A DNA stretch of 25,366 nt from a virus, in the IMG/VR virus record IMGVR_UViG_3300008122_000008, positions 1-25,366 of that record; one strand, written 5' to 3'. The notes below the pieces were generated by a model. It was not told where the DNA came from and searched no databases. It saw only the letters and a program-made list of their open reading frames with translations. Both the position numbers and the translations under genes were made by a program. Positions 9,856-25,366 of this stretch are shown piece after piece (the first letter of the stretch is position 1; every line of letters starts with the position of its first letter).

Positions 9856-9907
9856 TACATTTAAAAAAATAATTACAATTATTTTTTTAAAAATAATCAA
9901 ATAATAC

Positions 9908-10525: not shown

Positions 10526-10544
10526 AGTATCAAACTTTTTATTT

Positions 10545-10552: not shown

Positions 10553-10564
10553 TAATATATTGTA

Positions 10565-10570
10565 TATAAT
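10565..10570 (+). promoter_or_regulatory. Candidate -10 element TATAAT
   Basis: A perfect TATAAT in the context TTGTATATAAT lies 32 bases before the 108-aa plus-strand gene. No good -35 is found at 16-18 bases upstream. It would drive the two-gene plus-strand insert. Confidence 0.4.
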
Positions 10571-10596
10571 TATATTGTATTTTTAAGGATATTATA

Positions 10597-10923: not shown

Positions 10924-10926
10924 GAG

Positions 10927-11641: not shown

Positions 11642-11655
11642 TTAGTCCTCACAAT

Positions 11656-11685
11656 AAAAAAAGGTAGAACATTATATTCTACCTT
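11656..11685 (-). terminator. Rho-independent terminator
   Basis: A 9-bp stem AAGGTAGAA/TTCTACCTT with a 7-base loop is followed on the minus strand by a run of seven T. It ends the 254-aa gene at 11706-12470. Confidence 0.85.
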
Positions 11686-11705
11686 TTATTTATCATAATT
11701 TAAAA

Positions 11706-12470
11706 TTATGATACATTTACCACACGACCTGCTGCAACAGCAAATGGATGATTATCAGCAATCATTTTATCAACTTTAGTCATAATTGCTTCAACACGAT
11801 CAAAGTTAGTAACAACAAAATTACCTTGTTCGATTTGTTTAATTACAGTTGAGAAGTATGAACTTGTATAATCTTTATCTTGTCCTTTAACAAAGTTATG
11901 AACATAGATAACATTTGCAAGACGTAACTTACGAGCACGATCATTTCCAAGCCATGTATTTACAGCTGAAACTTTTGCATCAGTTACATTTAAATCGTCT
12001 TTAGATGCTTGATATGATTCTAATGATGCAGATAATGAACTATCAGTTTTGAATTCTTCAATATCAACAGTGCGACCCATTACATTACTGAATAATAATA
12101 ATTCACCAGGATATTGCATAAAATATGATGCAGCTTTATTATAAGCATCCATATCTTCTACTGGTGCACTGAATTCAAGTTGAGTTGTTTGTTTAGGTGC
12201 ATTTTCTTTTTCAGCTTGTTCAACTAGTTTAACGCCAGCTTGAATTTTTTCCCACATCCAATCTTTAATATCGAAACGACCGTATTTATAATGAGACATT
12301 GAATTAGATTTACCAGGACAATGATCAAATACATGTTTTGCTAAAGCTGATGTACGACCACCTTTTTCATTACACCACGTACGTAAAAAAACTGCGCGAT
12401 CTGAATTTTCATATTTGTTAACAGTTTGAGCCATTTTTGACTTTGTTGAACCTTTTTTTGAATCAACCAT
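11706..12470 (-). CDS. Putative DNA-binding protein with Cro/YdaS-like N-terminal domain, 254 aa
   Basis: Residues about 28-88 (FLRTWCNEKGGRT...YKYGRFDIKDWMWEKIQAG...EQAE) follow the pattern of YdaS/Cro-type helix-turn-helix proteins: L..W....GR...LA......G...YK.G...I.D..W..I. The same domain, including WC-x(3,4)-GRT, opens the 272-aa protein at 18383-19201, so the two are paralogues. The C-terminal part (about 105-254) is helical, and its KVSAVNTWLGNDRARKLRLA segment seems to have a counterpart in the paralogue, suggesting full-length homology. The N-terminus is basic. There is a good SD (AAGGAATTTAGA), a promoter upstream and a strong terminator, so this is a single-gene unit. It could be a phage transcription regulator; the helix-turn-helix assignment is by pattern only. 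Confidence 0.7.
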   Translation of the reverse strand: MVDSKKGSTKSKMAQTVNKYENSDRAVFLRTWCNEKGGRTSALAKHVFDHCPGKSNSMSHYKYGRFDIKDWMWEKIQAGVKLVEQAEKENAPKQTTQLEFSAPVEDMDAYNKAASYFMQYPGELLLFSNVMGRTVDIEEFKTDSSLSASLESYQASKDDLNVTDAKVSAVNTWLGNDRARKLRLANVIYVHNFVKGQDKDYTSSYFSTVIKQIEQGNFVVTNFDRVEAIMTKVDKMIADNHPFAVAAGRVVNVS

Positions 12471-12511
12471 TCTAAATTCCTTAACAAGGGGTCATTCGAT
12501 TTTGAGATTTA

Positions 12512-12541
12512 ATTATACACATATAATCAAATATAAGTAAA
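12512..12541 (-). promoter_or_regulatory. sigma70-like promoter
   Basis: On the minus strand, TTTACT, an 18-base spacer and a perfect TATAAT lie about 40 bases upstream of the putative DNA-binding protein gene. This fits host-polymerase (early) transcription. Confidence 0.55.
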
Positions 12542-12549
12542 CATATTTT

Positions 12550-13092
12550 TTAACTTTTAATTACGATTTTCGCGTATTCTTCTAACACATCTTTACGGAA
12601 AGGTAGATCAGCCCAATTAAATTTAAATTGTTTTTTAATTACAGTCTGACTATATGCAGACGTAAAAGCAGCTAATTCTTTTGTCTTATCATTAATATTT
12701 TGGGCATCAGATTCACCATCTTCCCGACTAAGCAATTTAATAGGATCATCCTGGAATATACATAGCTTAAACATATGCGAATTCTCACCAATCGCATGTT
12801 CCAGTACATTTAAAGGTAATGATAGCTTTCTATATAAAGGCCCATATACAGTCTCACTGATCCATGAACGATCTAATATAATATCGAATCCTTCATTATT
12901 AAGCTTAATAGCATTGTTAATTAATTCATTATAATAGATCATAGTCCATCGTTGAAGCAAATCACCAAATAGCTCTTTTGGCGGCTTACTGGAATGTATA
13001 ATCAACTGTCGCGGATTTAATATATTATTTCGCAAATGATTAATAAATGTAGATTTACCGCAACGATCCGGTCCTTCAATAACGTAGATCAT
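12550..13092 (-). CDS. P-loop deoxynucleoside monophosphate kinase (thymidylate-kinase-like), 180 aa
   Basis: The N-terminus MIYVIEGPDRCGKSTF carries a Walker A loop of the thymidylate kinase type (G-x-D-x-x-GKST, residues 7-15). A central LDRSWISE (73-80) matches the DR(Y/S) motif that holds the base and phosphate in dTMP kinases. A region near residue 120 (LLSREDGESDAQNIND) could be the lid. Length is near that of bacterial and phage dNMP kinases (about 180-240). The likely reaction is ATP-dependent phosphorylation of dTMP or another dNMP for phage DNA synthesis; base specificity cannot be read. The ATG follows AAGGAATATTAA. A late-like TATAAATA at 13123-13130 and the rII terminator lie upstream. 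Confidence 0.82.
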   Translation of the reverse strand: MIYVIEGPDRCGKSTFINHLRNNILNPRQLIIHSSKPPKELFGDLLQRWTMIYYNELINNAIKLNNEGFDIILDRSWISETVYGPLYRKLSLPLNVLEHAIGENSHMFKLCIFQDDPIKLLSREDGESDAQNINDKTKELAAFTSAYSQTVIKKQFKFNWADLPFRKDVLEEYAKIVIKS

Positions 13093-13122
13093 TTAATATT
13101 CCTTAAGAGTTGTATATGTGTA

Positions 13123-13130
13123 TATTTATA
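13123..13130 (-). promoter_or_regulatory. Candidate T4-type late promoter TATAAATA
   Basis: An exact TATAAATA lies on the minus strand 30 bases upstream of the kinase start, downstream of the rII terminator. Spacing to the SD is suitable. A late promoter before a kinase gene is unexpected, so chance occurrence in AT-rich DNA must be considered. Confidence 0.4.
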
Positions 13131-13150
13131 TTATGTCATATTTCAAATAT

Positions 13151-13187
13151 AAAAAAATGCCAATCTATTAAAGACTGGCATTTTTAT
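13151..13187. terminator. Rho-independent terminator after rIIB
   Basis: The stem AAAAATGCCA/TGGCATTTTT, extended by TCT/AGA after one mismatch, is flanked by A and T runs. On the minus strand it terminates the rIIA-rIIB unit. Confidence 0.88.
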
Positions 13188-13194
13188 TTTTCAA

Positions 13195-14088
13195 TTAAAC
13201 TGTGGCGGTAACATCAGCTAATACTTTATATTCGCATACACGAGCTTTAGCACCACTGTAGTCAACAGGGATACTTACAAAGTCTTTAGGATGAACTTTA
13301 CATTTAATAACGCGATTATTAGCACCGCCATAATATTTATTAATATATGACATTGAACCTACATGTAAACCGCGTGAACATGTTTTATTAGGATCCGTAT
13401 CAACTACGGCACGATCTTCAGTTACCGTTTTACCAACCGAATTATCAAATTTACCAGTACGATGATCAAGATAATTATGTGTTACCGCTTTAAAGCAAAT
13501 AACATATCCATCTTTATCAATACCAATATCATTATGCTGAATAAAATCAAATAATTGCGTAATAATTCGATCATCAGTATTTTGTAAAAGAAGATCCGCA
13601 AATTTAATAATATTCGCATCTTTCTTTTTATTAGCAAGAGTTAGAATACCATAAAGTGACTTAGATACTTCTTTCTTTTTATAAAGACATTTGCCATTTT
13701 TTAAATAAAGGTTTCCTTCGGTTGTAGCAACTAAATCTTTAATTTCAGGTTTATAATCGGCATCGCCAATTAACTGATTATATTCGCTTTGCGTCATGCT
13801 ATAGTCATCACGATTAAGCAGACTTAAAATTAATTCTTTATTTAAAACATATACAGCACTTTCAGTATTGATATTATAAATATTATCATTTACGATAACA
13901 GACATAACACCACTACGCTTCATTACTGAATATGGATATTTTACTTCATCAGCCAATCGTTTCAGGTGGTCACTCATCGTGGTTGGTGCGATACCAACTG
14001 CACGACAAGCGGCAGCTTTACTGCTACCTTTCTTGATTTCGTCATGATATTTTGCTAAAATTGCATTTGTTACTTTATACGATTTCAT
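13195..14088 (-). CDS. rIIB: rIIB-like protein, 297 aa
   Basis: The length is close to T4 rIIB (312 aa), and the position directly after rIIA with an ATGA start/stop overlap is the T4 arrangement. Residues 1-45 are a helix-turn-helix (KKGSSKAAACRAVGIAPTTM). The C-terminal part (about 190-297) has the family's GYVICFKAVTHNYLDHRTG and TCSRGLHVGSMSYI...VIKCKVHPKDFVSIP segments. In T4, rIIA and rIIB are membrane-associated early proteins needed for growth on lambda lysogens (overcoming RexAB exclusion) and for normal lysis-inhibition behaviour; their biochemical function is still unclear. Coupled translation with rIIA is suggested by the overlap. No defect is visible in this gene, in contrast to rIIA. 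Confidence 0.9.
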   Translation of the reverse strand: MKSYKVTNAILAKYHDEIKKGSSKAAACRAVGIAPTTMSDHLKRLADEVKYPYSVMKRSGVMSVIVNDNIYNINTESAVYVLNKELILSLLNRDDYSMTQSEYNQLIGDADYKPEIKDLVATTEGNLYLKNGKCLYKKKEVSKSLYGILTLANKKKDANIIKFADLLLQNTDDRIITQLFDFIQHNDIGIDKDGYVICFKAVTHNYLDHRTGKFDNSVGKTVTEDRAVVDTDPNKTCSRGLHVGSMSYINKYYGGANNRVIKCKVHPKDFVSIPVDYSGAKARVCEYKVLADVTATV

Positions 14089-16092
14089 CGATTTACCTTT
14101 TTAGTAATTAGTTTTTGAACTAATGGTTTTCCTACTTTAATATCTTTAAATGCATCTTCACACTCAGCCGGAATTCTAATATTTAAGCTATGTAATACAG
14201 CATCTAATGCAATAGCATCATTATCTGTATATTTCTCAAATATTGAATTAAGATATGAACTTAATCCATCTTTATCTTTTAAAAGCGGTTGAATTTGATT
14301 ATTAAATTTATAATACAATAAATCATATAAAGTATTATTCTTAATTTTAGAAGAATATACTAATTTCTTATTTGTAATAATATTATTACAAACAAAATCA
14401 TTAATAGATATTATATTGCGATTTACTGTAACATTAAATTCTTGGCTTCGTCTTTCAGAAATTAAGAAAATAGGCGGACATTTTACACTATTTTGAATAG
14501 CAGCCAAATAACGAATTGGCCAACTATTATTAAGCTCACCATTACGTTTAGTATATAAAACTATACATGGTTGTGATTTTAAAATATCCAAATCTGCTTC
14601 ATTAATTGGATAACGACCACTTTCAGACTTGTATAAATATAGACCATTTAAATTAACGTCTTTCACTTTTGGTAAGCGTGGTTGCGATACACCCTTAACA
14701 CGTTTAGTTCTTTCAAGCTGTACTGGCTTTATATTATATCCATAAAATGGAGAAATATCTTCAATCAATTTCATATAATACGAAATTGCTTTAGCTTTCA
14801 TTCTTACTAAAATACATTGCTTAATTTTATTGTTGACCATATATACACCAAGGTCAGCAATTGTAGTGTCATAGATAAAAATGATTGGTAAATTAGATTC
14901 AAATATTGCAGCCGGTTTAGCATTAATATATCGTCCAGCAACAGCAATATCAGAACTATCTAAAGTATATAATTGAATAGTCTTTTTATAATCAACTGGA
15001 TAGTAAATACTTGTGTCCACTAAAAAGTGCAATATATTTTTAGCGCTAAACTTTGTTAAATAATTTGGATCAATATAAGTATTTGGAATTGTAGCACTAG
15101 TATATTCACCAATATTATTAATTAACGATTTAAATCGATTAATAAAATCTATATACCACTTATAATTATATTTGAATTCTGCCTTAAATTTTTCAAGAAC
15201 AATATTGATAAAATCATCGTGCTGCTTATTAACAACTCGTTCAATACATTCGCGAGTTTGCTTAGTTAATTCAATACGCTCGCGATCAGGCGGAATATTA
15301 ATATCACCAATATTACATTTATAGATAATAGTTTTATTTGTTTTAATAAATTTAATATCTTGTTCTTCAAAATCACGTTGCTCTAACGGATATAAAACTT
15401 GACCCATGTCAATATATGTTTTATGCTGAAATAAATTTGAGTCATGAACTACGCCAATATCACCATAATAAGTGATCTCTTGATAATCAATATCAATATT
15501 TGTGGTTGGTTTAACTTTAAAAGCCGCTAACTGAGTTTGAATCGCATAAACCCATTTCTTAGTGTCACGGTCATCAATAATAATTTTTGTGCCACTTGGC
15601 TCATCGGTTTTAACTTCACCAACTACAAAAAATTGGGGTACACCTTTATTCTCACGAGCAAAAGTAACAGATGTTTTAATATTATTTTTAATTGAGATAA
15701 CCATAAAGTCATCTACAATAGAGAATGGGCTTTTACATCCAATACCGTAAGCACCAATAGCGTCATTACTATTTTCTTTACTTGACTCTAATAAAGTACC
15801 AAAGTATTTGATGATTTCATCTTTGCTTAAACCATCACCAAAATCGCGAATTGTAAATTTACCTTCAATTTCACCTGGTACTTCAATATGAAAAGGTACA
15901 AGCTCTTTACCCCGCAGATTTGTGTGCATCCCAAGCATTGCAAGATAGTTCACGAACGATTGATCCATATTTATCTTTATATAGACCATCAATTAACATT
16001 GTGAATAATTTTGATGAGTTTTTAACCTGCATAGTATGCTGGTCATTACTCCCAAAGATCTCTACATTAGAGTCTTGTGCCTCAATTTTCAT
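14085..16092 (-). CDS. rIIA: rIIA-like GHKL ATPase-fold protein with a +1 frame break (about 668 aa if joined)
   Basis: The N-terminal ORF (start ATG 16092, alternative 16104) reads through the N-box ELSCNAWDAH (residues about 48-57) and stops at TAA 15909-15907. In the +1 frame the protein continues immediately with KELVPFHIEVPG, DFGDGLS (G1 box, 83-89) and GAYGIGCKSPFS (G2 box, 113-124), then about 540 more residues to TGA at 14085. Joined, the product is about 668 aa, near T4 rIIA (725 aa), with a Bergerat ATP-binding fold. The break is at GCG GGG TAA A: skipping one base, or removing one G from GGGG, restores SAG-KEL exactly. It could be a sequencing or assembly error, a mutation, or programmed +1 frameshifting at a stop codon. 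The 3' part has no internal start that would supply the N-box. The rIIB overlap and a promoter at 16132-16158 define the operon. Confidence 0.85.
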
Positions 16093-16131
16093 ATAAATTA
16101 CCATATTGAATAAAATAAGTTGTTTATATAT

Positions 16132-16158
16132 ACTATACTTGTTTTATATTTTTGTATA
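16132..16158 (-). promoter_or_regulatory. Candidate promoter for rIIA-rIIB
   Basis: On the minus strand, TATACA, a 15-base spacer and TATAGT lie about 40 bases upstream of rIIA. The -35 hexamer is the same as in the candidates at 8574 and 20719. It overlaps the divergent promoter on the other strand. Confidence 0.4.
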
Positions 16159-16168
16159 TATGTTATAT
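16139..16168 (+). promoter_or_regulatory. Candidate promoter for the 106-aa plus-strand gene
   Basis: TTGTTT, an 18-base spacer and TTATAT lie about 55 bases before the gene at 16222. The match is moderate and the region is extremely AT-rich. Confidence 0.35.
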
Positions 16169-16221
16169 ACGTTTTTATAAAAATAATGTAATATTTTTAC
16201 ATCTTAATGTGGGGTATGCTT

Positions 16222-16542
16222 ATGACTGAATTTATGTTTTATGTCAGATACACTGGTTGGTATGCAGAAGCAATTGTGGAAAATTCTACAGGATATCAAT
16301 ATATTGATATCGATACCGCTAATAGAAATATAAAATATTCTAATATAAAAAGTCCTTCAAGTATCTGTATTAAAGATATTGAAAGACTTATATATAGTCA
16401 TGCTTTGGTTAATTCAAGAGGCGGTTTAAAAGATGCGATAGACATATATGAATATAATGAACGATTTCAATGGATTGATTATGATTTATATGACGCAATT
16501 CAAGATGTACAAACTTGTATGTGTTTAAAGCAATTGGATTAA
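16222..16542 (+). CDS. Hypothetical protein, 106 aa
   Basis: Unrecognised small protein with aromatic, beta-like N-terminal half (MTEFMFYVRYTGWYAEAIVE) and a helical second half (SICIKDIERLIYSHALV). The frame is open from ATG 16207, but GTGGGGT 8-14 bases before ATG 16222 is the only SD-like sequence, so 16222 is preferred. It is a lone plus-strand gene between rIIA and the 355-aa gene, and its stop overlaps the stop of that convergent gene by 4 bases. Confidence 0.7.
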   Translation: MTEFMFYVRYTGWYAEAIVENSTGYQYIDIDTANRNIKYSNIKSPSSICIKDIERLIYSHALVNSRGGLKDAIDIYEYNERFQWIDYDLYDAIQDVQTCMCLKQLD

Positions 16543-17606
16543 ATCGGTTTAATAGATATAATTCTATCTAAAGGGATTGTACGCCAATCATCAAGGTCTA
16601 AGTCACGAACAATAATAGTATTTTGCTTTTGGGTAATTTGTGCATCAGTTTTACCGATTCGGAAATTACCCGTTCTAACTTGACCATTCGCTTTTTTAAA
16701 TTTACAATATACGTCAAAGTCCATACGATCAGCAATTGCTAATAATGTACGTTTAGAATATTCAGTATTTGTTTGTTTCTTAACTACCTGGTTAGAATTA
16801 CCTAATTTTTTATTCTTATCCTCTTCCGGAAATTTATCATCCATTTCCTTTTTAAGATTATTATTAGAATCTTTATCATCTACTTGTGATAAATTATCTA
16901 CTTTTTTATAACCATTATTATCCGATGAAGTTTCAGCCTTTTGCTTTTTAAACATTGAATTTGTAAGCTGTTTATCAAGCTTATCATTTGTACTATCAAC
17001 GTTTTTATTATCTTGCTGCTTTTGATCATCCATAGATTTATCGGCAAAAGTCACATTAACTTTATTACCTTCATCTTCAGCTTGCTTTAATTTTTGATCT
17101 CGTATTTCCTGGTCACGTTTTTGCTGTTCAGCTCGTTCTGCTTGACGTCGTTCATTTTCAGCACGCATACGATCAGCAAATGATAAAGGCTTTGGTTTCT
17201 CTTGTGTATTTGATGATGAACTAACTGATGAATCTGAATTAGGTTTACCAAAAATATGCTTTTCTGGTTTATCATTATCTAAGTTAGGATTTTCTTTTTT
17301 AAGACCTAATCGAACAGCTAATGATAATTTATTTTGTTTAGGCTCTTCTTTAGTATCTTCAGATTCTTCCTCTTCTTTTTTAGGAGGCAATGTCATTTCA
17401 GCTAGTTTCGCCGCTTTACCTTTTTCTTTTTTGGTAAAGTATTCATCATCTTCTAAAATCTTTTTGAGTTCATCTTCAGTGATATGTTTGAAAACATTAT
17501 AGCCATAAAGACCCTTTGATTTTATCTTTTTAATAAAATCTTCTAATTCAATTTCATTATTTTCTTCAGAATCTATTGCTTCTGTTAGATAATTATCAAA
17601 GTACAT
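16539..17606 (-). CDS. Long charged, putatively capsid-targeted protein, 355 aa
   Basis: From ATG 17606 the protein begins MYFDNYLTE|AIDSEENNE, matching the capsid-targeting pattern of three other proteins in the window, with LTE as a candidate prohead-protease site. GTAGGCAA lies before this ATG; an upstream in-frame ATG (17624) would add six residues and spoil the pattern. Residues about 60-280 are highly charged, Lys/Glu/Gln/Asn-rich, low-complexity and coiled-coil-like (RAENERRQAERAEQQKRDQ). Residues about 285-355 are a compact beta domain (VYCKFKKANGQVRTGNFRIG...DDWRTIPLDRIISIKPI) recalling the KKDG...R...FRTG unit of the protein at 9424. It may be a scaffold-core or DNA-associated internal head protein. 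Function is inferred from the N-terminus and composition only. Confidence 0.72.
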   Translation of the reverse strand: MYFDNYLTEAIDSEENNEIELEDFIKKIKSKGLYGYNVFKHITEDELKKILEDDEYFTKKEKGKAAKLAEMTLPPKKEEEESEDTKEEPKQNKLSLAVRLGLKKENPNLDNDKPEKHIFGKPNSDSSVSSSSNTQEKPKPLSFADRMRAENERRQAERAEQQKRDQEIRDQKLKQAEDEGNKVNVTFADKSMDDQKQQDNKNVDSTNDKLDKQLTNSMFKKQKAETSSDNNGYKKVDNLSQVDDKDSNNNLKKEMDDKFPEEDKNKKLGNSNQVVKKQTNTEYSKRTLLAIADRMDFDVYCKFKKANGQVRTGNFRIGKTDAQITQKQNTIIVRDLDLDDWRTIPLDRIISIKPI

Positions 17607-17624
17607 TTGCCTACAACTTCCCAT

Positions 17625-18155
17625 TCTTTATAATATGTATTTAATACATTTTCTTTTATTATTCTCTGGACATGACTCACCACTTTATATCTGTGATTTT
17701 AGTAAATTATGATTTAAAAATAATAGAGAAGTTAATCTCAGAATTTAAAAATCATAAATTTAATAATAGAAATACATATTCAATTGATAATTAAAATAGA
17801 TCAATTAGAATATTTTATAAAGGATAAGAGACATATGATTTACTTCAAATGATTGCTGTATTTCATTTGATTCAAATTACAGTAGGCCCAACAATGCCGG
17901 CATCCCAAATACAGTGGTTGCTTTCAAGTTTATACTTCCCTTTCAGGACATTCTTTTGTCATAGAATGTATATCTCACAAGAACTTATTACGGCTTCCTG
18001 TGCATCAATATATGTAGACAGTTCAAAATAGTCAATCAAATACTAAGTTTATCATTCTACATAAGTTATGATCTACGACGATCATATGAACACTACGGTT
18101 GGTTTGACGTCTATTAATTAATCTTGTGCAATCATAATAATTAATAGATGAATCC
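17625..18155. other. 530-bp dyad-rich intergenic region of higher GC, no intact gene
   Basis: This is the longest stretch without an intact gene. The part from about 17.84 to 18.16 kb is visibly richer in G+C than its surroundings. It holds several inverted repeats: tcaaatga/tcatttga (17845-17870), acattct/agaatgt (17948-17969), tatgatc/gatcata (18067-18086) and ctattaatta/taattaatag (18111-18120 with 18138-18147). On the minus strand, successive open stretches that look protein-like (RSVHMIVVDHNLCRMINLVF, FELSTYIDAQEAV, KLESNHCIWDAGIVGPTVI) lie in different frames separated by stops. This could be a decayed gene, an assembly with indels, a recoded gene or a structured RNA. A plus-strand frame at 17849-18031 (60 codons) lacks an SD. 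No tRNA cloverleaf was found. The 17.63-17.84 kb part is AT-rich and looks like leader for the 355-aa gene. Confidence 0.5.
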
Positions 18156-18287
18156 TTAATTAGATTCTTCGTGTTCAGATGGTTGATTACCGGTACCTGC
18201 TTTCACAGGATCACATCTTGGGTTTTCAGTGGTCGAAATAGCCCAAACTTTTTTTATTGCGATTGCATTAGTATTATCAACTAACAT
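18156..18287 (-). CDS. Small hypothetical protein, 43 aa
   Basis: The ORF runs from ATG 18287 to TAA 18156 and encodes a peptide beginning MLVDNTNAIAIKKVWAISTT and ending EHEESN. AGGATAAAGA just before the ATG is a strong SD, and an exact late-promoter motif TATAAATA lies at 18350-18357, so the gene is likely real despite its size. It has one Cys, a Gly/Pro-containing middle and an acidic tail; no domain is recognised. Its codons are less AT-biased than those of neighbours, like the dyad-rich region downstream. The +1 frame after its stop stays open for 41 codons. Confidence 0.65.
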   Translation of the reverse strand: MLVDNTNAIAIKKVWAISTTENPRCDPVKAGTGNQPSEHEESN

Positions 18288-18349
18288 TCTTTATCCTATT
18301 GTTCCACGCCCAGATAAAGTAAGGCTAATATTTACAAATATTGAATATG

Positions 18350-18357
18350 TATTTATA
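18350..18357 (-). promoter_or_regulatory. Candidate T4-type late promoter TATAAATA
   Basis: Exact TATAAATA on the minus strand in the context GGTATAAATACATATTC. The expected start would be near 18344, giving a 5' leader of about 57 bases to the 43-aa gene. A related sequence, GTATTAAATACATATT, precedes the 355-aa gene (around 17636-17646). Confidence 0.5.
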
Positions 18358-18382
18358 CCATAATTTACCGTTAAAGTAAATA

Positions 18383-19201
18383 TTATGCTGCCATTAACAG
18401 CTCATTTTTCGACTTATTAATATTAGTAAAATATTCTTTATAATAATTTAAGTCTATTAATTTAGCGGCTTTATCAATACTATTAATTGATAAAATATCT
18501 AATAATGGATCATTATTAATAATTAGATAATCAATTACATTCATTGAAGATAATACATTTTTATATACATTACCTCTAATACTGGTATTAACTATAAATG
18601 ATGTATTATAAAAACAAGTAAATTTATTTCTTAGAATTTTATTATTTGTCATCAATGGATAAACGATATTGAATAATTTCTTTTTCAGTGTATCATTAAT
18701 TAATAGCCAATCATCAACTTTATTTTTTAAAATATGGCTTTCAATTTTGGTACTAGGTGTAATGATTTTACTTTTTTTAAAATCTGGATATTTATTAACA
18801 ATAATATCTTTATATAAAGGATTTTTAATATTGGATAGATTTAAGTCTAAACCTACATATTCACCAAATAGTTTTATTGTTTCTTCATTTTTTAAAGTTT
18901 TTAGTGCTCTATGATAAATACGCGATGTAATATCGTACTGGGTGTGCCGGATTCGACCTTTTACAGGAATCTTTATAGTTGGCTCACTTTCTTCAATAAT
19001 TGGCATAGCAGCTTGTATGGAGCACCAAACAGCGTCTGTGATTTGCATTTTACCAGATTTATATGGATAAATTCGACCATCCTCTTCATCGAATAAATAT
19101 CGGCTCAAATTGATAGTACGTCCTTTATGGATATTACACCATTCAATAAGTTCTTTTACGCGAGTGTCATCTTTATATTTCGCGTCTTCTACATTCTTCA
19201 T
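18383..19201 (-). CDS. Putative DNA-binding protein, paralogue of the 254-aa protein, 272 aa
   Basis: Residues about 17-73 (ELIEWCNIHKGRT...YPYKSGKMQITDAVWCSIQAA...EESE) align by eye with the Cro/YdaS-like N-terminal domain of the protein at 11706-12470, sharing WC, GRT, YK-x-G, I-x-D-x-x-W and IQA. The remaining 200 residues are helical, Asn/Ile/Lys-rich and more diverged. This copy uses the very AT-rich codons typical of the window, whereas the 254-aa copy is less biased, which suggests different ages or expression levels. GGAT 8-11 bases before the ATG is a possible SD. The H1-like gene's terminator lies directly upstream. A regulatory role is inferred from the domain only. Confidence 0.68.
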   Translation of the reverse strand: MKNVEDAKYKDDTRVKELIEWCNIHKGRTINLSRYLFDEEDGRIYPYKSGKMQITDAVWCSIQAAMPIIEESEPTIKIPVKGRIRHTQYDITSRIYHRALKTLKNEETIKLFGEYVGLDLNLSNIKNPLYKDIIVNKYPDFKKSKIITPSTKIESHILKNKVDDWLLINDTLKKKLFNIVYPLMTNNKILRNKFTCFYNTSFIVNTSIRGNVYKNVLSSMNVIDYLIINNDPLLDILSINSIDKAAKLIDLNYYKEYFTNINKSKNELLMAA

Positions 19202-19240
19202 AAAAAATATCCATATAGATTTAATAAAATTATATAATAA

Positions 19241-19267
19241 AAAAGGACCCTATAGTAGAGTCCTTTT
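19241..19267 (-). terminator. Rho-independent terminator
   Basis: The stem AAAAGGAC/GTCCTTTT, with a loop that can add a CTA/TAG pairing, is followed on the minus strand by a T run. It terminates the H1-like gene. Confidence 0.82.
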
Positions 19268-19280
19268 TAACTTTATTCAA

Positions 19281-19856
19281 TTAAAGCTTGTTGATATCTA
19301 GACCGCATTCTTTCAAATGATTACTGATGCTACCTAAGCGGATAAATTCGATACCATACGCTTTAGGCAATTTAGTAATAGTGCAAAACTGTTTTGCAGA
19401 GATATCACCAAAGTCTTCACTATGCTTGATAGTGAGAATATGCAGAGTACTCAATTTAGAACCACGCGGGGCTTTATGTACTTCTTTAGTGATTGCATTT
19501 AAAAGGTCTCGCTGATGTTTAGTTACACCTTTTACTTCACGTGGTTTACGTGTAGTTTGCTTTTCAACTGTATCGGTTTTTTGTTCAGTAGATTCTGCTT
19601 TAGCCGTCGCATTTTTAGTTGCAGTAGTAGTTTTAGCTTTTACTGGTGCTTTAGTACGAGCAGTTTTAGCAGGTGTATCAGATTTAGCATTTGCCTTATT
19701 TGCACTTGCTTTTTTACGTTGAGCAGTCAATGCAGCTTTTGCTTTAGGCTGGCTAGTTGCTTTCGCTTTGGCCGGAGTTGCTACATTTTCATTATCTTGA
19801 GCTACAACCGCGTTATTAGTAGTGTCAGTAGTAGTTGTGTTAGTTGCTGTATTCAT
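19281..19856 (-). CDS. Histone H1-like basic protein with C-terminal domain, 191 aa
   Basis: The N-terminal Thr/Asn-rich segment is followed by a long Ala/Lys/Thr/Pro tract (residues about 28-115, e.g. ATPAKAKATSQPKAKAALTA) like the tails of bacterial and eukaryotic H1-type DNA-binding proteins. Residues about 120-191 (VTKHQRDLLNAITKEVHKAP, then SAKQFCTITKLPKAYGIEFI) form a compact helical domain of unknown family. It probably coats or condenses DNA, in the cell or the virion. The start is ATG 19856 (MNTATN) or ATG 19868 (MVTIMN); ATGGTAACTATT before the former resembles the arrangement at the 120-aa gene. The frame is open further upstream to 19955, but that part includes the promoter. Alternating homopolymer-like codons make antisense frames look open; those are shadows. 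Confidence 0.75.
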   Translation of the reverse strand: MNTATNTTTTDTTNNAVVAQDNENVATPAKAKATSQPKAKAALTAQRKKASANKANAKSDTPAKTARTKAPVKAKTTTATKNATAKAESTEQKTDTVEKQTTRKPREVKGVTKHQRDLLNAITKEVHKAPRGSKLSTLHILTIKHSEDFGDISAKQFCTITKLPKAYGIEFIRLGSISNHLKECGLDINKL

Positions 19857-19890
19857 AATAGTTACCATATGTTTGTTGTGATGATGATTT

Positions 19891-19919
19891 ATTATTAGCC
19901 ATAACTTACGGCTTGTACA
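19891..19919 (-). promoter_or_regulatory. Candidate promoter for the H1-like gene
   Basis: On the minus strand, TGTACA, a 17-base spacer and AATAAT occur, with the -35 embedded in AATGTATGTACAA. That 11-13-base element is also present upstream of the 120-aa gene at 9786. Confidence 0.45.
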
Positions 19920-20032
19920 TACATTGATTAAAAAATTTACACTTTTACTATACAAATTATGGTAAACAATAAATAAGTTATTGATTTTTATATATTTATT
20001 ATTTACCGCTAAATGTAATTATTTGTAATAAA

Positions 20033-20368
20033 CTATTGTTTTAAATAATTAAATACACACTTTTCCATTATTATGACTATAGAATAAGCTAATTCTGACT
20101 TATTATCCACTAAATTTATTGGTTTTCTAAGGACAAAAATAGGATGTTCGAGCTTATGTATCATCAGTCGGCGTAGCATTACATCTAAATCTTCTTGCAT
20201 AAAGTCCATATATGCATTTGGTATATTATCAATAAATACTAAATGATCATTATTTGCAAATTCTTTATCATAATGAGCAACTGCATCCATATATCTGGAT
20301 TCTTTTAATAAGTTGGATGAATGCTCACGTACGAGCGATATAAGTTTAGAAGAGTCTAGATTTGACAT
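20033..20368 (-). CDS. Hypothetical protein, 111 aa
   Basis: Unrecognised, mostly helical soluble protein (SSKLISLVREHSSNLLKESR, DVMLRRLMIHKLEHPIFVLR). The ATG at 20368 has GGAGATATCCA before it, a strong SD, and lies inside the 3' end of the preceding 104-aa gene (23-base overlap in another frame), so the pair is co-translated. It has no membrane segment or enzyme motif. The 163 bp after it hold the promoter of the H1-like gene and no clear terminator. Confidence 0.75.
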   Translation of the reverse strand: MSNLDSSKLISLVREHSSNLLKESRYMDAVAHYDKEFANNDHLVFIDNIPNAYMDFMQEDLDVMLRRLMIHKLEHPIFVLRKPINLVDNKSELAYSIVIIMEKCVFNYLKQ

Positions 20369-20660
20369 TGGATATCTCCGGATTTAAAATAATACTAATA
20401 AGGTGTGATAAATTGCTTTTAATAAAGATATGATCTTCGTAGATTTCAACTCTATCCCATATTTGTGGAATTAAGTCTTCTTTAATTATTGGTAAATAAG
20501 TGCTAATTGGTGCATTATTTCTATGAAATATTACATAGCTAATAATAGATTGATTAAATGCATCTACTAACAATTGGTACTTGCGTTCAGATTCTAATTG
20601 ATATAACGCAGCTAGTTGAAAATATTCAGACCACTTGCTTTTGTCTTTTGGAAACAACAT
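20346..20660 (-). CDS. Hypothetical protein, 104 aa
   Basis: Unrecognised. Helical N-terminal half (FQLAALYQLESERKYQLLVD) and mixed second half. The ATG at 20660 is preceded by GGAGGTGTATATAT, the most complete SD in the window, implying strong translation. It is the first gene of a two-gene minus-strand unit, divergent from the Cys-cluster gene at 20782. Confidence 0.75.
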   Translation of the reverse strand: MLFPKDKSKWSEYFQLAALYQLESERKYQLLVDAFNQSIISYVIFHRNNAPISTYLPIIKEDLIPQIWDRVEIYEDHIFIKSNLSHLISIILNPEISNVKSRLF

Positions 20661-20718
20661 ATATATACACCTCCATAAATTTTTTCAATAATACAGTATA
20701 AAAATATTAAAAGATGTA

Positions 20719-20747
20719 TATACATTTAAAAATTAGCGGTATATAAT
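20719..20747 (+). promoter_or_regulatory. sigma70-like promoter
   Basis: TATACA, a 17-base spacer and TATAAT. The -35 lies in the palindrome TGTATATACA, related to the ATGTATGTACA elements before two other genes. Confidence 0.6.
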
Positions 20748-20781
20748 AGCTACATACACAATAAACTCGATGGAGTTAAAA

Positions 20782-21255
20782 ATGGCTAAAAAAAATTTAT
20801 TCGGTTTACGTTGCGCATGTTGCGGTTCAGATATCACTGCCCCTCAATTCTATAAGGGCCAAATGTATGGCTATACATGCATTACTAAAGTTGCCCCAAA
20901 GCAAAAGAAAAATAAAGTAGCTGATTTATTAATCATCCCTTTCGATAAAATCGAAGATACTATTAATAATTTTATTCCATATAATCGAACATCGGTTAGT
21001 CGATCTCACCGTATTGGTTATATTTTTACATTATCAACGGGTTTACGTTTATTTATACACGCAAGCCGCATTTATACTACTATTGCAGGTTTAAACCCGC
21101 GTAGTGACACTACAATAGCTCATGGATCACAAACTTATATTGATTATGAGAAAAAAATTCTTATTGTACCAAGAAATATTTGGGAACCAGAAACAATAAT
21201 TAAATTGCGTGGCGTACCAGGAATTCAAGGCGATTTTAAATATCTAGACCAATAA
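20782..21255 (+). CDS. Cys-cluster protein, 157 aa
   Basis: The N-terminus MAKKNLFGLRCACCGSDI has a CxCC cluster (Cys 11, 13, 14) followed by a further Cys at about 33 (YGYTC), suggesting a small zinc or metal site; the rest is beta-rich (IGYIFTLSTGLRLFIHASRI). Family unknown. The frame is open from ATG 20770, but ATGGAGTTAAAA makes GGAG a proper SD for the ATG at 20782, which is preferred. It has its own good promoter and a bidirectional terminator, so it is an independent plus-strand unit. More GC and Arg codons (cgt, cgc) than most neighbours. Confidence 0.75.
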   Translation: MAKKNLFGLRCACCGSDITAPQFYKGQMYGYTCITKVAPKQKKNKVADLLIIPFDKIEDTINNFIPYNRTSVSRSHRIGYIFTLSTGLRLFIHASRIYTTIAGLNPRSDTTIAHGSQTYIDYEKKILIVPRNIWEPETIIKLRGVPGIQGDFKYLDQ

Positions 21256-21279
21256 AAAGAGGCTTATGCCTCTTTTTTT
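21254..21279. terminator. Bidirectional terminator between convergent genes
   Basis: Perfect stem AAAAAGAGGC/GCCTCTTTTT with a TTAT loop and seven T. It overlaps the stop of the Cys-cluster gene and serves the convergent internal-protein gene as well. Confidence 0.9.
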
Positions 21280-21288
21280 ATCAATCAA

Positions 21289-21957
21289 TTATTTATATAC
21301 AAAAGCAGGAAGAGTGCCACCGTATACTTTGGCCATATCTTTTAGATCTTTAGCATGACCCCAGTCTACTAATACGCCGCCGCCAAGATCACGTCCAGAT
21401 TGATCACCTTTAAATAAAGAACGATCGCCAATATCAGACGTAGGCTTTTTACCAGATGTTATCACGACACGATATTTTTTATGATCGAGTTGCCATACTT
21501 CATATGTAGACGTATCACCCCAAGTTTCATGTACATTAAAGTATTTACTATTACCAGTTTTCATACTTAACGTACCAATTGATAAAATTGCAGCAGGTCG
21601 GCGTGGCGCTTCGCTTTTAGCTTTATCTGATTCTCTTGTTTTAGGAACCCATGTCTTAACAGCAACTTTTTCAGCTTTTTCCGCAGGATCAGCTTCATCA
21701 TATGCTTTTTTAATTTCTTCATATGTTGCGCCGAGCTCAACTGCTTTATTACCAAAATCGGCAAACGTACCTTTGAATGGCGGTTTAGTTAATTCTGTAT
21801 CAGTAAGCTTTAAACCAGCAACATAACGATCAATAGCTTTTGTTTTATCTTTAATTGATTTAGCAACACTTGCGCCATCTTTTTCTTTATCGATTAAATC
21901 CTGCATACGGGTCCAATCTTTGGCGGTTACTTCATTTAAATATTCTTCAAAATTCAT
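21289..21957 (-). CDS. Putative capsid-targeted internal protein, 222 aa
   Basis: It begins MNFEEYLNE|VTAKDW, matching the capsid-targeting pattern of the proteins at 9908, 11213 and 16539, with LNE as a candidate prohead-protease site. The mature N-terminal 120 residues are helical and Lys/Asp/Glu-rich (MQDLIDKEKDGASVAKSIKD). A basic Pro-containing linker (KSEAPRRPA, about 117-125) leads to a beta-rich C-terminal domain (about 125-222) with KKYRVVITSGKKP, DRSLFKGDQSGRDLGGG and VDWGHAKDL segments; the family is not recognised. The SD is AGAAGAGA. The gene uses more GC than its neighbours. Two-domain architecture plus the signal suggest an injected effector or head-core protein. Confidence 0.72.
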   Translation of the reverse strand: MNFEEYLNEVTAKDWTRMQDLIDKEKDGASVAKSIKDKTKAIDRYVAGLKLTDTELTKPPFKGTFADFGNKAVELGATYEEIKKAYDEADPAEKAEKVAVKTWVPKTRESDKAKSEAPRRPAAILSIGTLSMKTGNSKYFNVHETWGDTSTYEVWQLDHKKYRVVITSGKKPTSDIGDRSLFKGDQSGRDLGGGVLVDWGHAKDLKDMAKVYGGTLPAFVYK

Positions 21958-22004
21958 TTGTTTCTCTTCTTATATTAATATCAATATTATATATTTAATG
22001 CTAT

Positions 22005-22307
22005 TTAAAAATAGCGTATCTTATAAATATATCCATTTTCTATATGGATGAATTTATCGATTGAATATAAATATTTTATATTTGAAAAATCAAATTCATT
22101 AAGATCACTCACAATGGTATTTGTTGCACATGTACCATTTTTGCCATCTTTTATAATAAAATCATTAATAAATTTAATATTATTTTTTCTTAAAAAAGAT
22201 AATGACGGTAATGTGTCATTATCTTTAGGTTGTGGAGTCAATCGGTCATAAAATTTGCAGCGTCTTTTAAATTTACTATATGATCTTTTATTTACTACAT
22301 TTATCAT
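22005..22307 (-). CDS. Hypothetical protein, 100 aa
   Basis: Unrecognised small basic protein (N-terminus MINVVNKRSYSKFKRRCKFY). The ATG at 22307 follows AGGTGATTGAAGT, an extended SD. Its stop lies in a small hairpin (gctat/atagc, about 22000-22015) without a T run, so this is at best a weak terminator. It is transcribed divergently from the TerL/intein gene; the 90 bp between them holds whatever promoters serve both. Confidence 0.7.
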   Translation of the reverse strand: MINVVNKRSYSKFKRRCKFYDRLTPQPKDNDTLPSLSFLRKNNIKFINDFIIKDGKNGTCATNTIVSDLNEFDFSNIKYLYSIDKFIHIENGYIYKIRYF

Positions 22308-22397
22308 ACTTCAATCACCTGTACTGTAACGATAATAAGTTCATTTTTTATTGTATTTAAAGCTGTATTAAATACAATAAAAACGGTTATAAATATA

Positions 22398-22751
22398 ATG
22401 AACAAATATTTTGCACCTAATAATGGTCGATTTAAAATTCTCACAGATGAAGGCTTTAGCGATTTTTTAGGTGTCACTAAAACAGAACAGTCTTTAACTG
22501 TCAAAGAAATTACATTAGATAATGGTGCAACTATTACAACTACAGTTGATCATTGTATTTTTATTGATACAGTTAATTCAAAGGAAATGGGCAAATTAGG
22601 AATAGGAGATAAAGTTTTATATAATAATCAACTTCATACAATCGTAAGTGTTAGATATAAAGATACTAATGCGGTATATGATGTATTAGAAGTTGAAAAA
22701 AATCATCGATTCTATGTTAAGTCACTTAATCAATATTTTCTGGTAAAAAAC
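22398..22751 (+). other. Split intein 1, C-terminal half (118 aa)
   Basis: It begins with KILTDEGFSDFLGVTKTEQ, similar in pattern to the start of the AceL-TerL intein C-half as I recall it. Block B is ITTTVDHCIF (TxDH), and block F is VYDVLEVEKNHRFYV. It ends FLVKN followed by Cys, the expected Asn/Cys splice junction. The residue before Asn is Lys, not the usual His. The start in front of block B means the intein is split early, between blocks A and B. Confidence 0.85.
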
Positions 22752-23174
22752 TGCCTATATATTGATGAGCTTGGCTTCGTACCAGCGGCCGAAGAATTTT
22801 ATGAATCTGTATATCCAACAATTTCATCATCTGATACTTCTAAAGTAATTATTACAAGTACGCCAAAAGGATTAAACTTCTTTTATAAAATGTGGATTGA
22901 AGCTGAAACAGGTATTAGTGAATATATTGCATATGATGTAAAATGGTACGAACACCCAGACCGCGATCAGGCCTGGTATGATTCACAGGTTGCAAACTTA
23001 AATGCTAAATCAGTTGACCAGGAGATTAATTGTATTGCTGCTAATACAATTATTAATGTAGATAATACAGATATTGCGATCGGTGATTTATATAATAAAT
23101 ATAAAAAGTTAAATTCAGAAAATAATAACGGTGTTGTTTATATTCAAGATATAAATTATACAATTGGAAAATAA
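22398..23174 (+). CDS. terL: Middle piece of a fractured TerL gene: split-intein C-half, TerL ATPase segment, second split-intein N-half (258 aa)
   Basis: Three parts lie in one frame. Residues 1-118 are an intein C-half. Residues 119-211 are terminase large subunit with Walker B (LYIDELGF, 120-127) and the ATPase coupling motif (IITSTPKGLNFFY, 151-163), close to T4 gp17 YIDECAF and ITTTPNGLNHFY. Residues 212-258 begin with Cys and read as an intein N-half that ends at TAA. TerL is the packaging motor ATPase/nuclease. This polypeptide lacks Walker A and the nuclease, so it could only work after trans-splicing to an upstream N-piece (not in the window) and the downstream piece starting at 25105. 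There is no strong SD before ATG 22398; the frame is open back to 22284 with no better start. Neither intein contains an endonuclease. Confidence 0.85.
   Translation: MNKYFAPNNGRFKILTDEGFSDFLGVTKTEQSLTVKEITLDNGATITTTVDHCIFIDTVNSKEMGKLGIGDKVLYNNQLHTIVSVRYKDTNAVYDVLEVEKNHRFYVKSLNQYFLVKNCLYIDELGFVPAAEEFYESVYPTISSSDTSKVIITSTPKGLNFFYKMWIEAETGISEYIAYDVKWYEHPDRDQAWYDSQVANLNAKSVDQEINCIAANTIINVDNTDIAIGDLYNKYKKLNSENNNGVVYIQDINYTIGK
22752..23030 (+). other. TerL extein segment (93 aa): Walker B and coupling motif
   Basis: Cys-LYIDELGF to SVDQEIN. It corresponds to the part of T4 gp17 from Walker B to the end of the ATPase domain (...QFRQE region). The insertion points are therefore just before Walker B and at the ATPase-nuclease junction, both conserved sites. 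Confidence 0.85.
23031..23171 (+). other. Split intein 2, N-terminal half (47 aa)
   Basis: CIAANTIINVDNTDIAIGDL resembles intein block A (Cys1, T-x-I, I-x-I-x-DLY), like the 25-aa N-half of AceL-TerL. It then runs on through an Asn-rich tail to a stop codon. There is no block B, so this is a natural early split rather than a truncated intact intein. Confidence 0.82.
23150..23157 (+). promoter_or_regulatory. Possible late promoter (one mismatch)
   Basis: TATAAATT lies 20 bases before the LamG gene at 23177, inside the end of the TerL/intein ORF. It would allow separate late expression of the adhesin. Chance occurrence is possible. Confidence 0.3.
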
Positions 23175-23176
23175 GC

Positions 23177-25063
23177 ATGGCGAGTCATAAAAAGTATATA
23201 AAAGAATTAAGACCACTTACGTTTATTACATTTGATTCAAATACCTTATGGGATATTGATAATGGCAATTTATTATATGGTGAAACTATACCAGATGAAT
23301 CTGAAAATGGTGAACCTATTAACGCGCTATTACATACTGAATATATTGTAAATCGTAGCTCTTATATGATGGGTCAGCCCTCAATGGTGGTTAATGCTAG
23401 GACTGATAATTATTCTATTGTATTAGCACCATATGAAAAAGATGATAAAAATGAATTTCCTTTTTCTAAATCATGGATTGAAATTCCATATGAAGAGCGC
23501 TTACGTTTAGATAAAAGTTTTAGTATTTCATTTATTTTTAATAAAATTAAATCTGACGGATTTATAAGAAACTGGATTTGGAAAGAAGATCAAAATAGAT
23601 ATGTGGCCGCAAATAACATAAACGGTTATAATTATTCTGATTTATATAGAACTATTTTTCGTAAAGGTAATAAAATAGGTTTAACATATGTAATGCCATA
23701 TTATTATGGAGATTATTTATCAGTTGTTTTTCCAAATAATAGTACGACAATTCAAGGTAGTTCATTACCAGGTTTTTATAATAGAGATGTAAATATTGCC
23801 ATGACACATGAATATATTGTCATGGATGATGGTCGTTATTATACTTTATCTCGCTTATACTGGGATAACCGGGTAATGTACGAACACCAAACTTCTCCAG
23901 TATTTGGCGACTATACCGGTGGTAATACTGCACCATTTGAAATTGGTGGTAACCAGGATGCATGGGCATTTAATACTTTAAATGATAGAGCAACATCTGC
24001 ATTAATATTAGATCAGTTCGCTATTTTTGATTATGCATTACAGCCATTCCAAGTATCAAATATTTATAAAAAGATTTATCCATATGAACAGGTTGTTTTA
24101 CGAGCTGAGCCTACTTTATATTATCCATTTAATGAAAAAAATAATAACTCTGTATTTGAACCTATAGTTAATAATAATTCATATTATACTATTCGATATT
24201 TCGGCGCAAATGAATCTCAAATTGACCGGGGTAAACCTGGTATACATGGCGTTTATGGAACTTCATCAGTACATGTAAAAGCAAAAGGTATGCTATATTG
24301 TAAGCCATATGAAAATAATTATTATGGTAGCACATTCTTTAACCCTGCCGGCGATTTTACAATTGACTTTTTTGCTATGATTGACTCTAATAATAAAGGT
24401 GTATTATTATCTATTCAAGATGATATTCAACCATTTAGAGGTTTATGTTTATATGCAAATTGTAAAAATAATGAAGAACATCCTGGTATGTTACAATTAT
24501 CTATATCTGAAGATAATTATATTATGACAGACGAAAAAAATATTCGTAATGAGGCTGTAACTTATAATCATGGTGTTGTTCGTCATTATGCGATTAGACG
24601 TAAAAATAATTTCATTGAATTATGGATCAATTCAGTATTAGTTAATAAAATATATTTACCTGCTGGTAACTTAACTAATGGGGCTAACCATCTTTATATG
24701 TTCGGATTAATGCCAGGTAATTTATCTGTATCAGGATCAATTCAACATTTGACTTTTTATACACGTGCATTATCACAACAAGAATTAGAAGTTAGATCTT
24801 CTTATATGGTAAAATATAATATTCGTGGAAAAGTAACCGTACAAGGTGTTGGTCAAACTATTTTAATGCGTGTTTATTCATTTAATAATGGTAATTTAGT
24901 TGTAGAGCAAAAAACTGACGGCGATGGATCATATAATTTAACTATTCCAAGTGATGACTATATTAATGTAGTAGTGATGGATGTAGGTAATATTAATATT
25001 CGACCAAAAATATTAGGACCTTTAATGCCAGATGAATATGAAGACTTGCCTTGGGATTATTAA
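23177..25063 (+). CDS. LamG-domain phage adhesion protein, 628 aa, lying between two TerL pieces
   Basis: Two LamG/concanavalin-like modules are visible, at about residues 30-300 (with SFSISFIFNKIK) and 300-545 (with FTIDFFAMID, then HYAIRRKNNFIELWINSVLV and IQHLTFYTRALSQQELE, the typical last strand). Residues about 548-628 (VKYNIRGKVTVQGVGQTILM...DGDGSYNLTIPSDDY) look like a carboxypeptidase-regulatory/transthyretin-like beta-sandwich. This resembles the overall design of the 1864-aa protein at 245, so the two probably serve related receptor- or glycan-binding roles on the virion. GGAAAATAAGC precedes the ATG, which is 2 bases after the TerL/intein stop. Its position, a complete structural gene between the halves of a split intein, is unusual. 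Confidence 0.85.
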   Translation: MASHKKYIKELRPLTFITFDSNTLWDIDNGNLLYGETIPDESENGEPINALLHTEYIVNRSSYMMGQPSMVVNARTDNYSIVLAPYEKDDKNEFPFSKSWIEIPYEERLRLDKSFSISFIFNKIKSDGFIRNWIWKEDQNRYVAANNINGYNYSDLYRTIFRKGNKIGLTYVMPYYYGDYLSVVFPNNSTTIQGSSLPGFYNRDVNIAMTHEYIVMDDGRYYTLSRLYWDNRVMYEHQTSPVFGDYTGGNTAPFEIGGNQDAWAFNTLNDRATSALILDQFAIFDYALQPFQVSNIYKKIYPYEQVVLRAEPTLYYPFNEKNNNSVFEPIVNNNSYYTIRYFGANESQIDRGKPGIHGVYGTSSVHVKAKGMLYCKPYENNYYGSTFFNPAGDFTIDFFAMIDSNNKGVLLSIQDDIQPFRGLCLYANCKNNEEHPGMLQLSISEDNYIMTDEKNIRNEAVTYNHGVVRHYAIRRKNNFIELWINSVLVNKIYLPAGNLTNGANHLYMFGLMPGNLSVSGSIQHLTFYTRALSQQELEVRSSYMVKYNIRGKVTVQGVGQTILMRVYSFNNGNLVVEQKTDGDGSYNLTIPSDDYINVVVMDVGNINIRPKILGPLMPDEYEDLPWDY

Positions 25064-25104
25064 TATAGTTAAATATATTTTATAAAAAGAGATAATTAAA
25101 AGTT

Positions 25105-25366
25105 ATGAATAAGCTTAAAAAATTTGTATCAATTAAAACAATTAAAGATATTGAAATTAAATCTGATATTGGTTATATTCCGATAAAAAATATTATGAAG
25201 ACTGTAGAATATGATGTATATGAATTAGCATTTGATAATGGCGAAATTATAGAATGTGCGGATAATCATATCTTTATTGATACTAATAATAAAGAAATAT
25301 TTGCTGTTGATTTAACACCTGAAGATAAAATTATTTCTAATAATGGATTTACATCTTTAATATCAA
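25105..25366 (+). CDS. terL: Start of the next TerL piece: split intein 2, C-terminal half (partial, runs off the window)
   Basis: The ORF from ATG 25105 is open to the window end (87 codons). It reads MNKLKKFVSIKTIKDIEIKS, then SDIGYIPIKNIMKTVEYDVY, then block B FDNGEIIECADNHIFID, parallel to intein C-half 1 (SDFLGVTKTEQ..., TVDHCIFID). The remaining intein C-half, the splice junction and the TerL nuclease domain should follow outside the window. That part is a prediction, not seen. GAGATAATTAAAAGTT precedes the ATG, a weak SD. Confidence 0.8.
   Translation, partial: MNKLKKFVSIKTIKDIEIKSDIGYIPIKNIMKTVEYDVYELAFDNGEIIECADNHIFIDTNNKEIFAVDLTPEDKIISNNGFTSLIS

Follow-up and report, generated by a model that had tools for sequence, protein, structure and literature searches.

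How can a phage keep a working large terminase subunit (TerL), an essential enzyme, when its gene is broken inside inteins and the parts are spread over the genome? The question is raised by a 25,366-nucleotide stretch of viral DNA, called the window here (IMG/VR record IMGVR_UViG_3300008122_000008, positions 1 to 25,366). An open reading frame (ORF) of 258 codons at 22398-23174 (+) encodes an intein C-half, a segment of TerL and an intein N-half, and a second ORF opens at 25105 with another intein C-half. An earlier note, made from the window alone, had read this as a TerL in at least three genes joined by more than one trans-splicing event. That proposal held in kind and fell short in number, since a longer virus contig (G001, 380,997 bases), colinear with window positions 5835-25366 over ~19.5 kb (G001 178491-198020; 98.4% identity), holds four TerL pieces and three split inteins. 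We consider it highly probable, at roughly 0.86, that the TerL of a T4-like jumbo phage, of the T4 gp17 type, is encoded here as four genes joined by three split inteins.

TerL pieces and intein halves

In the ORF at 22398, intein profiles place the C-half of split intein b at 22398-22751 (+; residues 1-118, 118 residues, ending in FLVKN and followed by Cys at position +1). The TerL segment, extein C (CLYIDEL...VDQEIN), follows at 22752-23030 (+); placed by the profiles, it runs from Walker B, stops shortly ahead of the nuclease domain and corresponds to T4 gp17 residues ~251-353. Next comes the 47-residue N-half of split intein c (23031-23171, +; residues 212-258, starting CIAANTII; stop codon 23172-23174), placed by profiles and by a homologous N-half in a contig of a relative, L033. 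This composition, already proposed in the earlier note, was borne out by a match of residues 104-217 to PHROG 2 'terminase large subunit' (E 4.3e-16), by PF03237 on extein C (27 bits, cut-off 22) and by NCBIfam TIGR01445 (intein_Nterm), which matched two stretches with 26.2 bits (cut-off 24.5). Among sequences of solved structures, the best match of the TerL part (residues 119-211) was T4 gp17 (E 8.8e-11). Extein C spans C119 to N211, exactly the 93 residues first counted, and the piece should indeed be useless alone; junction b lies 4 residues before the Walker B Asp-Glu and junction c before the nuclease. The G001 copy of the ORF (piece C, 195052-195828, +; PF03237, PHROG 2) is 96% identical.

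The second ORF leaves the window end (25105-25366, +) with 87 of the 117 residues of the C-half of split intein a, recognized from Pfam and the G001 copy. Its Intein_splicing match has an E-value of 0.0059 in the window and of 4.8e-7 in the complete G001 copy (residues 82-117), both below the family cut-off; the first reading, that this ORF begins with an intein C-half, is correct. It had also been expected to lead into the TerL nuclease, which proved wrong. Complete in G001 (piece B, 197759-198463, +; 234 residues), the ORF passes from the C-half, ending LSHN, into TTVAAGYIVHQM...SSVRGQSVN and then into CIDINTMI...GRS. Its extein B (TTVAAGY...RGQSVN, 84 residues) is the TerL segment between Walker A and Walker B, matched to T4 by BLAST (E 5e-22 in a comparison of 3 sequences) and best to gp17 in the PDB (E 6.6e-17). 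Because this segment lies upstream of Walker B, B precedes C in the protein though its gene stands downstream of the C gene. The earlier note had named an ORF without a nuclease continuation as a refutation; this holds for the ORF solely through the misread order of the pieces.

The two outer pieces lie elsewhere in G001. A Walker A piece ending in an intein N-half, the expected upstream partner, was found as piece A (327565-328509, -; PHROG 2), which carries the TerL N-terminus up to the Walker A lysine (FPRQMGK; extein 132 residues) and ends with CIDGDSMV...KGSQQ. Piece D (37775-38863, +; PF17289 over cut-off, PHROG 2) starts with an intein C-half followed by CSFLGSSN... and the nuclease domain (extein 259 residues), and its neighbours are genes for the sheath (PHROG 23, E 5.5e-97) and the tube (PHROG 45, E 6.9e-49) of the tail, as is the case for gene 17 in T4. 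Homology to both the ATPase and the nuclease domain of gp17 is found across the pieces. The genes are 156.2 kb (D-C), 1.9 kb (C-B) and 129.1 kb (B-A) apart, lie on both strands and have C and B in reverse order relative to the protein.

Joined as A-B-C-D, the exteins amount to 568 residues, 36% identical to T4 gp17 over 483 residues, with borders at T4 positions 166/167, ~250/251 and 353/354. Compared with the intact TerLs of three contigs of 156-160 kb (L036, L039, L034), identity is 45-47% over 512-528 residues, with no gap at the three junctions. A hidden Markov model from 14 inteins, G001's own included (those matches being expected), was run on the 1521 G001 ORFs of at least 40 residues and matched the ORFs of the four TerL pieces and that of NrdA at 114935-117841, the next domain E-value being 0.39. 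In the TerL pieces, each of the three N-halves hence has its C-half and the set is closed, with none left over. The intein of NrdA is small and contiguous, and is the only further one found in G001. An intact terL elsewhere, which the earlier note had named as a refutation, was not found in the 381-kb contig by PF03237 (one match, piece C), PHROG 2 (E up to 10; pieces A, C and D and a weak match in NrdA, E 0.018) or BLAST of four TerLs against the ORFs (E up to 1; the four pieces and one 36-residue match, E 0.60), other terminase families being left unsearched.

The insertion sites are GK/TT in Walker A for intein a, where the P-loop is cut between Lys and Thr, SVN/C for b, and EIN/C for c, which separates the nuclease domain. 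N-halves and C-halves measure 36/117, 33/118 and 47/103 residues for a, b and c, respectively; complementary halves on separate genes flank contiguous extein in three pairs with gapless joins. A short N-half with a long C-half is the layout of atypically split, AceL-TerL-like inteins, with N-half c longer than the 25-37 range of described cases. Site c may be the AceL-TerL site. Inteins usually carry Cys or Ser at position 1, Thr and His in block B, Asp in block F, a penultimate His, a terminal Asn and Cys, Ser or Thr at +1. By eye, Cys1, the block-B His, the block-F Asp, the terminal Asn and Cys or Thr at +1 are present in a, b and c.

The pieces, the halves, their catalytic residues, the seamless join and the conservation are visible in the DNA; from these we infer splicing in the cell, its specificity and the order of its steps. 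In the proposed mechanism, the N-half and C-half of each split intein would associate, excise themselves and ligate exteins A-B-C-D after translation. Piece A would also lose a complete intein that abuts its split N-half, and three trans-splicing reactions with one cis reaction (two in a relative) would give one TerL of 568 residues. With the P-loop cut at junction a and a second cut before the Walker B acid pair at junction b, no unspliced ATPase piece should be active.

Independent copies, selection and rival explanations

The pieces recur outside the window and G001. A 20-kb contig (L042) holds a copy of piece A that is 98% identical and has the same neighbouring ORFs. In metagenome 3300011947, contig L033 carries C, a LamG domain gene and B in the order of G001 and contig L044 carries piece A, all with the same junctions. 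Extein identity to G001 is 65% for A, 80% for B and 63% for C, and we infer that the two contigs are one phage, the ~65% relative. The C-LamG-B layout, recurring in G001 and this relative, is not due to chance. For piece C, the ratio of nonsynonymous to synonymous substitution rates (dN/dS) between window and G001 is 0.25, and its extein differs by 2 synonymous substitutions and no others. In L042 against G001 the ratio is 0.16 for the complete small intein of piece A (the mini intein), and the A extein and N-half are unchanged, which says little. Computable values against the relative are 0.06-0.69, all stretches computed being below 1.

Several observations weigh against four genes joined by three split inteins. 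G001 is a linear and possibly incomplete contig, and a second terL could lie outside it. The penultimate residue of intein b is Lys (Arg in the relative) and not the usual His, the mini intein has an unusual Ser at this position, and the site-a family is without the usual block-B Thr. Inteins a, b and c of G001 are mutually 24-32% identical. Structure predictions were uninformative (mean predicted local distance difference test 41 for piece C and 34 for L044 piece A, 3 sequences each). The synonymous rate is saturated in several comparisons with the relative, and N-half c has the highest dN/dS, 0.69. Piece D of the relative was not found through D (best 80 of 156 relatives) or through the tail sheath gene (best 80 of 98). 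Lastly, a late-promoter motif, TATAAATA, stands within 60 bases upstream of 18 of 391 ORFs of at least 120 residues (4.6 expected); in the 120 bases before the start, D has three copies, C has one just 10 bases off, and A and B have none, so that no late-promoter motif is shared. The motif thus lends no support to a late control common to the four genes.

Some of these points would also suit an account in which the pieces are decayed relics of a broken terL and packaging depends on another TerL, located outside the contig, supplied by a helper phage or too divergent to be matched. That account can draw on the completeness of G001, which is not established, on the unusual intein residues and on a search limited to T4-type TerL models. 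It is nevertheless improbable, as PHROG 2 yielded only A, C, D and the weak NrdA match and BLAST only the pieces and the 36-residue match, the key intein residues are kept, extein C differs between window and G001 by 2 synonymous substitutions alone, and dN/dS is below 1 elsewhere. Alternatively, the pieces might act as non-covalently assembled subunits, with intein halves that are dead or mere docking devices. Split intein halves are known, from the family, to bind each other, and D, as a whole nuclease domain (PF17289), could act by itself. The ATPase fragments would, however, have to share one active site holding the intein tails of junctions a and b, and Cys1, the terminal Asn and Cys or Thr at +1 are conserved in three pairs, which leaves this arrangement very improbable. 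An assembly or binning artefact with misplaced fragments of different phages, a concern of the earlier note that applies to metagenomic contigs, is hardly credible when colinearity between G001 and the window extends for 19.5 kb, L042 is a second copy of A with the same neighbours, the relative keeps the C-LamG-B and A layout in independent contigs, and a scattered TerL occurs in the deposited complete genome of the cultured phage SCTP-2.

Intein stacking at the Walker A site and intein origins

In both G001 and L042, the mini intein (CVTGDTN...AILSN) stands directly before N-half a, and its +1 residue is Cys1 of intein a. Piece A of L044 has a further, 327-residue intein outside it (GK/NLAWDTP...LVPTHN/CSTKDTN...AILSN/CIDGDSLV; L044:4820-5800), which makes three inteins at one insertion site with zero extein residues between them. 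In the same piece, NCBIfam models for the two intein ends both pass their cut-offs and meet at one point, the C-terminal one matching 435-458 and the N-terminal one 458-541. The outermost intein contains a LAGLIDADG_3 domain (E 6.2e-10). Class 3 inteins are described in PMC7891396 as having no N-terminal nucleophile and a WCT triplet of Trp N3:12, Cys C2:4 and Thr C1:5. In translation, the outermost L044 intein has an Asn start, HDW, SYCITV and PTHN (blocks placed by eye), and it is apparently a class 3 intein stacked on a class 1 intein. The inner inteins each start with Cys, so that removing any one leaves the next with Cys at +1; the stacked inteins would thus be removable in any order.

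The origin of these inteins was examined in a tree of 22 inteins, with 9 of 19 inner branches open and sites b, c and FIDE/C unresolved. All 8 site-a inteins fall into a single clade (97/99; none of 500 shuffles was as low), in which G001 a stands beside the relative's a and which includes the CP21 intein, inserted 3 residues away. Intein b of G001 pairs with that of the relative (98/98). Intein c of G001 stands with its PX29 and PSTRCR_127 counterparts (87/85, below the level that the tool stars), and the c intein of NVP1244A is placed elsewhere. Given this grouping by site, the split inteins look like separate site-specific arrivals rather than local copies. The mini inteins of G001 and the relative likewise form a pair (100/99) outside the site-a clade, and the nearest BLAST matches are intein b of the relative and Desulfovibrio phage 7757. 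The mini intein did not, on this evidence, arise by tandem duplication of split intein a, as BLAST gave no match to a of either phage (E up to 0.01) and the site-a clade (97/99) is without it.

Related loci, neighbouring genes and significance

Split-intein genes are a known kind; what is new here is a gene in four pieces, scattered and permuted, with stacked inteins. The fractured genes described by Dassa et al. in 2009 are reportedly two-piece and colinear, and a free-standing homing endonuclease usually separates the parts. The likeness lies in an essential phage gene cut inside a split intein, where the N-half ends one gene and the C-half starts the next. Compared with that type, G001 has three cuts, distances of 1.9-156 kb, both strands, C and B reversed, and a LamG gene between C and B. 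Its parts do not share one locus with an endonuclease between them, as in that type, and G001 TerL, although it would work like a fractured gene, is not classed as one. Split sizes of 25/104 for AceL-TerL, 37/115 for GOS-TerL and 30/104 for Cat-TerL are given in PMC11766414. These share with G001 the TerL host protein, a short N-half, a long C-half and Cys at +1, but are described as single splits, whereas G001 has three such splits in one TerL. In the open-licence full text covered, neither three split inteins in one natural protein nor a stacking of inteins at a single site was found described.

Aeromonas phage PX29 (genes 17A/17B, with N- and C-intein in the GenBank notes), Providencia PSTRCR_127 and Vibrio NVP1244A are split at site c, like G001, but only once, colinearly and with a GIY-YIG-like endonuclease in or between the parts (annotated in PX29, by eye in the others). 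The TerL intein of Kuttervirus PhaxI shares the GK/TT site and the clade of split intein a but is contiguous within one gene.

Viral contigs were scanned with an alignment of three B pieces, which gives a biased set (the query is split at a) with copies kept. The scan returned 78 loci, 56 of them with an ORF across junction a, and 55 of these 56 are split there. Tandem split inteins in one protein had been thought rare, but multiply split TerL is not; in this biased set a second split was seen by eye in 28 of the 56 (an ORF that stops at Walker B or ahead of the nuclease and is followed by an N-half or the next piece), and 5 loci leave the sequence too early to judge (L248, L270, L274, L288, L291). 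A third split occurs in 5 of 56, namely L238 (G001), L239 (the ~65% relative, via N-half c), L241, L242 and L272, where L241 and L242 are 100% identical over 6.6 kb and count as one sequence. L242 (IMGVR_UViG_3300027742_000010) matches G001 in its four pieces and three split inteins but is colinear, with all parts in order within 5 kb and site b at RGKS/C. Its ORF between A and B matches MUG113 over cut-off and that between B and C matches NUMOD3 below cut-off; both are taken as homing endonucleases. L272 (1657-5516) has N-halves at a, b and c, with N-half b fused to an endonuclease-like stretch in a 617-residue ORF; piece D was not seen within the locus.

Scattered TerL genes are also present in cultured phages. 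In the cultured Salicola jumbo phage SCTP-2 (MF360958; L219, L228, L236) the pieces lie at ~429.5 kb (-), 256.4 kb (+) and ~216 kb (-). It differs from G001 in having three pieces, site b at SLLY/C and, besides its two split inteins, a contiguous intein further on; only gp267 (256.4 kb) was seen annotated 'terminase large subunit'. A jumbo phage review naming SCTP-2 (PMC7824862) has the word 'intein' once and, in 12 of its 14 passages, deals with no split TerL. Vibrio phage vB_VmeM-32 (KU160494, L218) and Campylobacter Fletchervirus F370 (MT863727, L028) each divide TerL between two scattered genes, one on either strand, joined by one split intein. In vB_VmeM-32, a 168-residue frame directly before piece A (L233:1435-1938, -) matches PHROG 2 at positions 286-374 (E 2.4e-6); BLAST against the joined TerL gives no match, and the frame may be a second TerL fragment that has decayed or diverged. 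CP21 has two TerL pieces with a T5orf172 nuclease between them. For the group II Campylobacter phage IBB_35, PMC3322345 describes terL as 'interrupted by an intein and an intron' and mentions an accompanying endonuclease.

Among the neighbouring genes, the 628-residue LamG domain gene of the window (23177-25063, +; Laminin_G_3, E 2.2e-7) is not part of TerL and separates C from B in G001 and the relative as well. Full-length relatives occur in phages of Stenotrophomonas, Acidovorax, Xanthomonas and Variovorax (20 records; 27.5-27.9% identity among the 15 matches listed), a hint at the host group. It is the first of the large genes that stand between and after C and B (window 23177-25063; L002:13399-15432). 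Window positions 1-5834, with a 1882-residue LamG protein (191-5839), gave no blastn match in G001 (E 1e-10, word 28), and this is probably a variable tail or receptor-binding gene. The rIIB and rIIA homologues are adjacent on the minus strand (13195-16104), an arrangement shared with T4-like phages; in the window rIIA is broken into two ORFs (14085-15992 and 15907-16104), whereas G001 has it whole (672 residues). The endonuclease seen nearest to the TerL pieces of G001 type is an HNH-like gene after A, a candidate homing endonuclease. It is the third gene after A in L042 (12464-13249; PHROG 3118, E 3e-22, with an Srd anti-sigma factor PHROG scoring slightly better), and in L044 it lies near A (7086-7868; PHROG 3118 best, E 4.6e-25); Pfam gave no match in either.

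The scattered state is likely to have arisen from a contiguous intein through a split gene with an endonuclease (L035, L242), followed by endonuclease loss and relocation. Piece D keeps the place of gene 17 beside the tail sheath and tube genes, which suggests that D stayed and the 5' parts of TerL moved away. It is possible, if doubtful, that the scattering was selected, with four unlinked genes acting as an AND-gate in which TerL becomes active only after all are expressed and three orthogonal trans-splicing reactions are completed, with no early ATPase or nuclease; the same tentative scheme includes a stacking rule by which inner inteins are Cys-first, any can be removed first and class 3 stands only outermost.

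If the pieces splice, three trans-splicing reactions would make an essential enzyme in nature from the products of four unlinked genes; the three-segment protein assemblies described in PMC12707363 and PMC7210297 are engineered ones. Protein engineering would gain atypical split inteins that co-evolved in nature and are presumably orthogonal, and because SCTP-2 is cultured, the central claim is open to proteomics. Phage detection and phylogeny based on TerL may miss or miscount such phages. The series from intact TerL to contiguous intein, colinear split with endonucleases and scattered gene is visible in relatives and makes the evolution of genes in pieces testable, and the scattered TerL is a test of the degree to which an essential gene can be fragmented and yet function.

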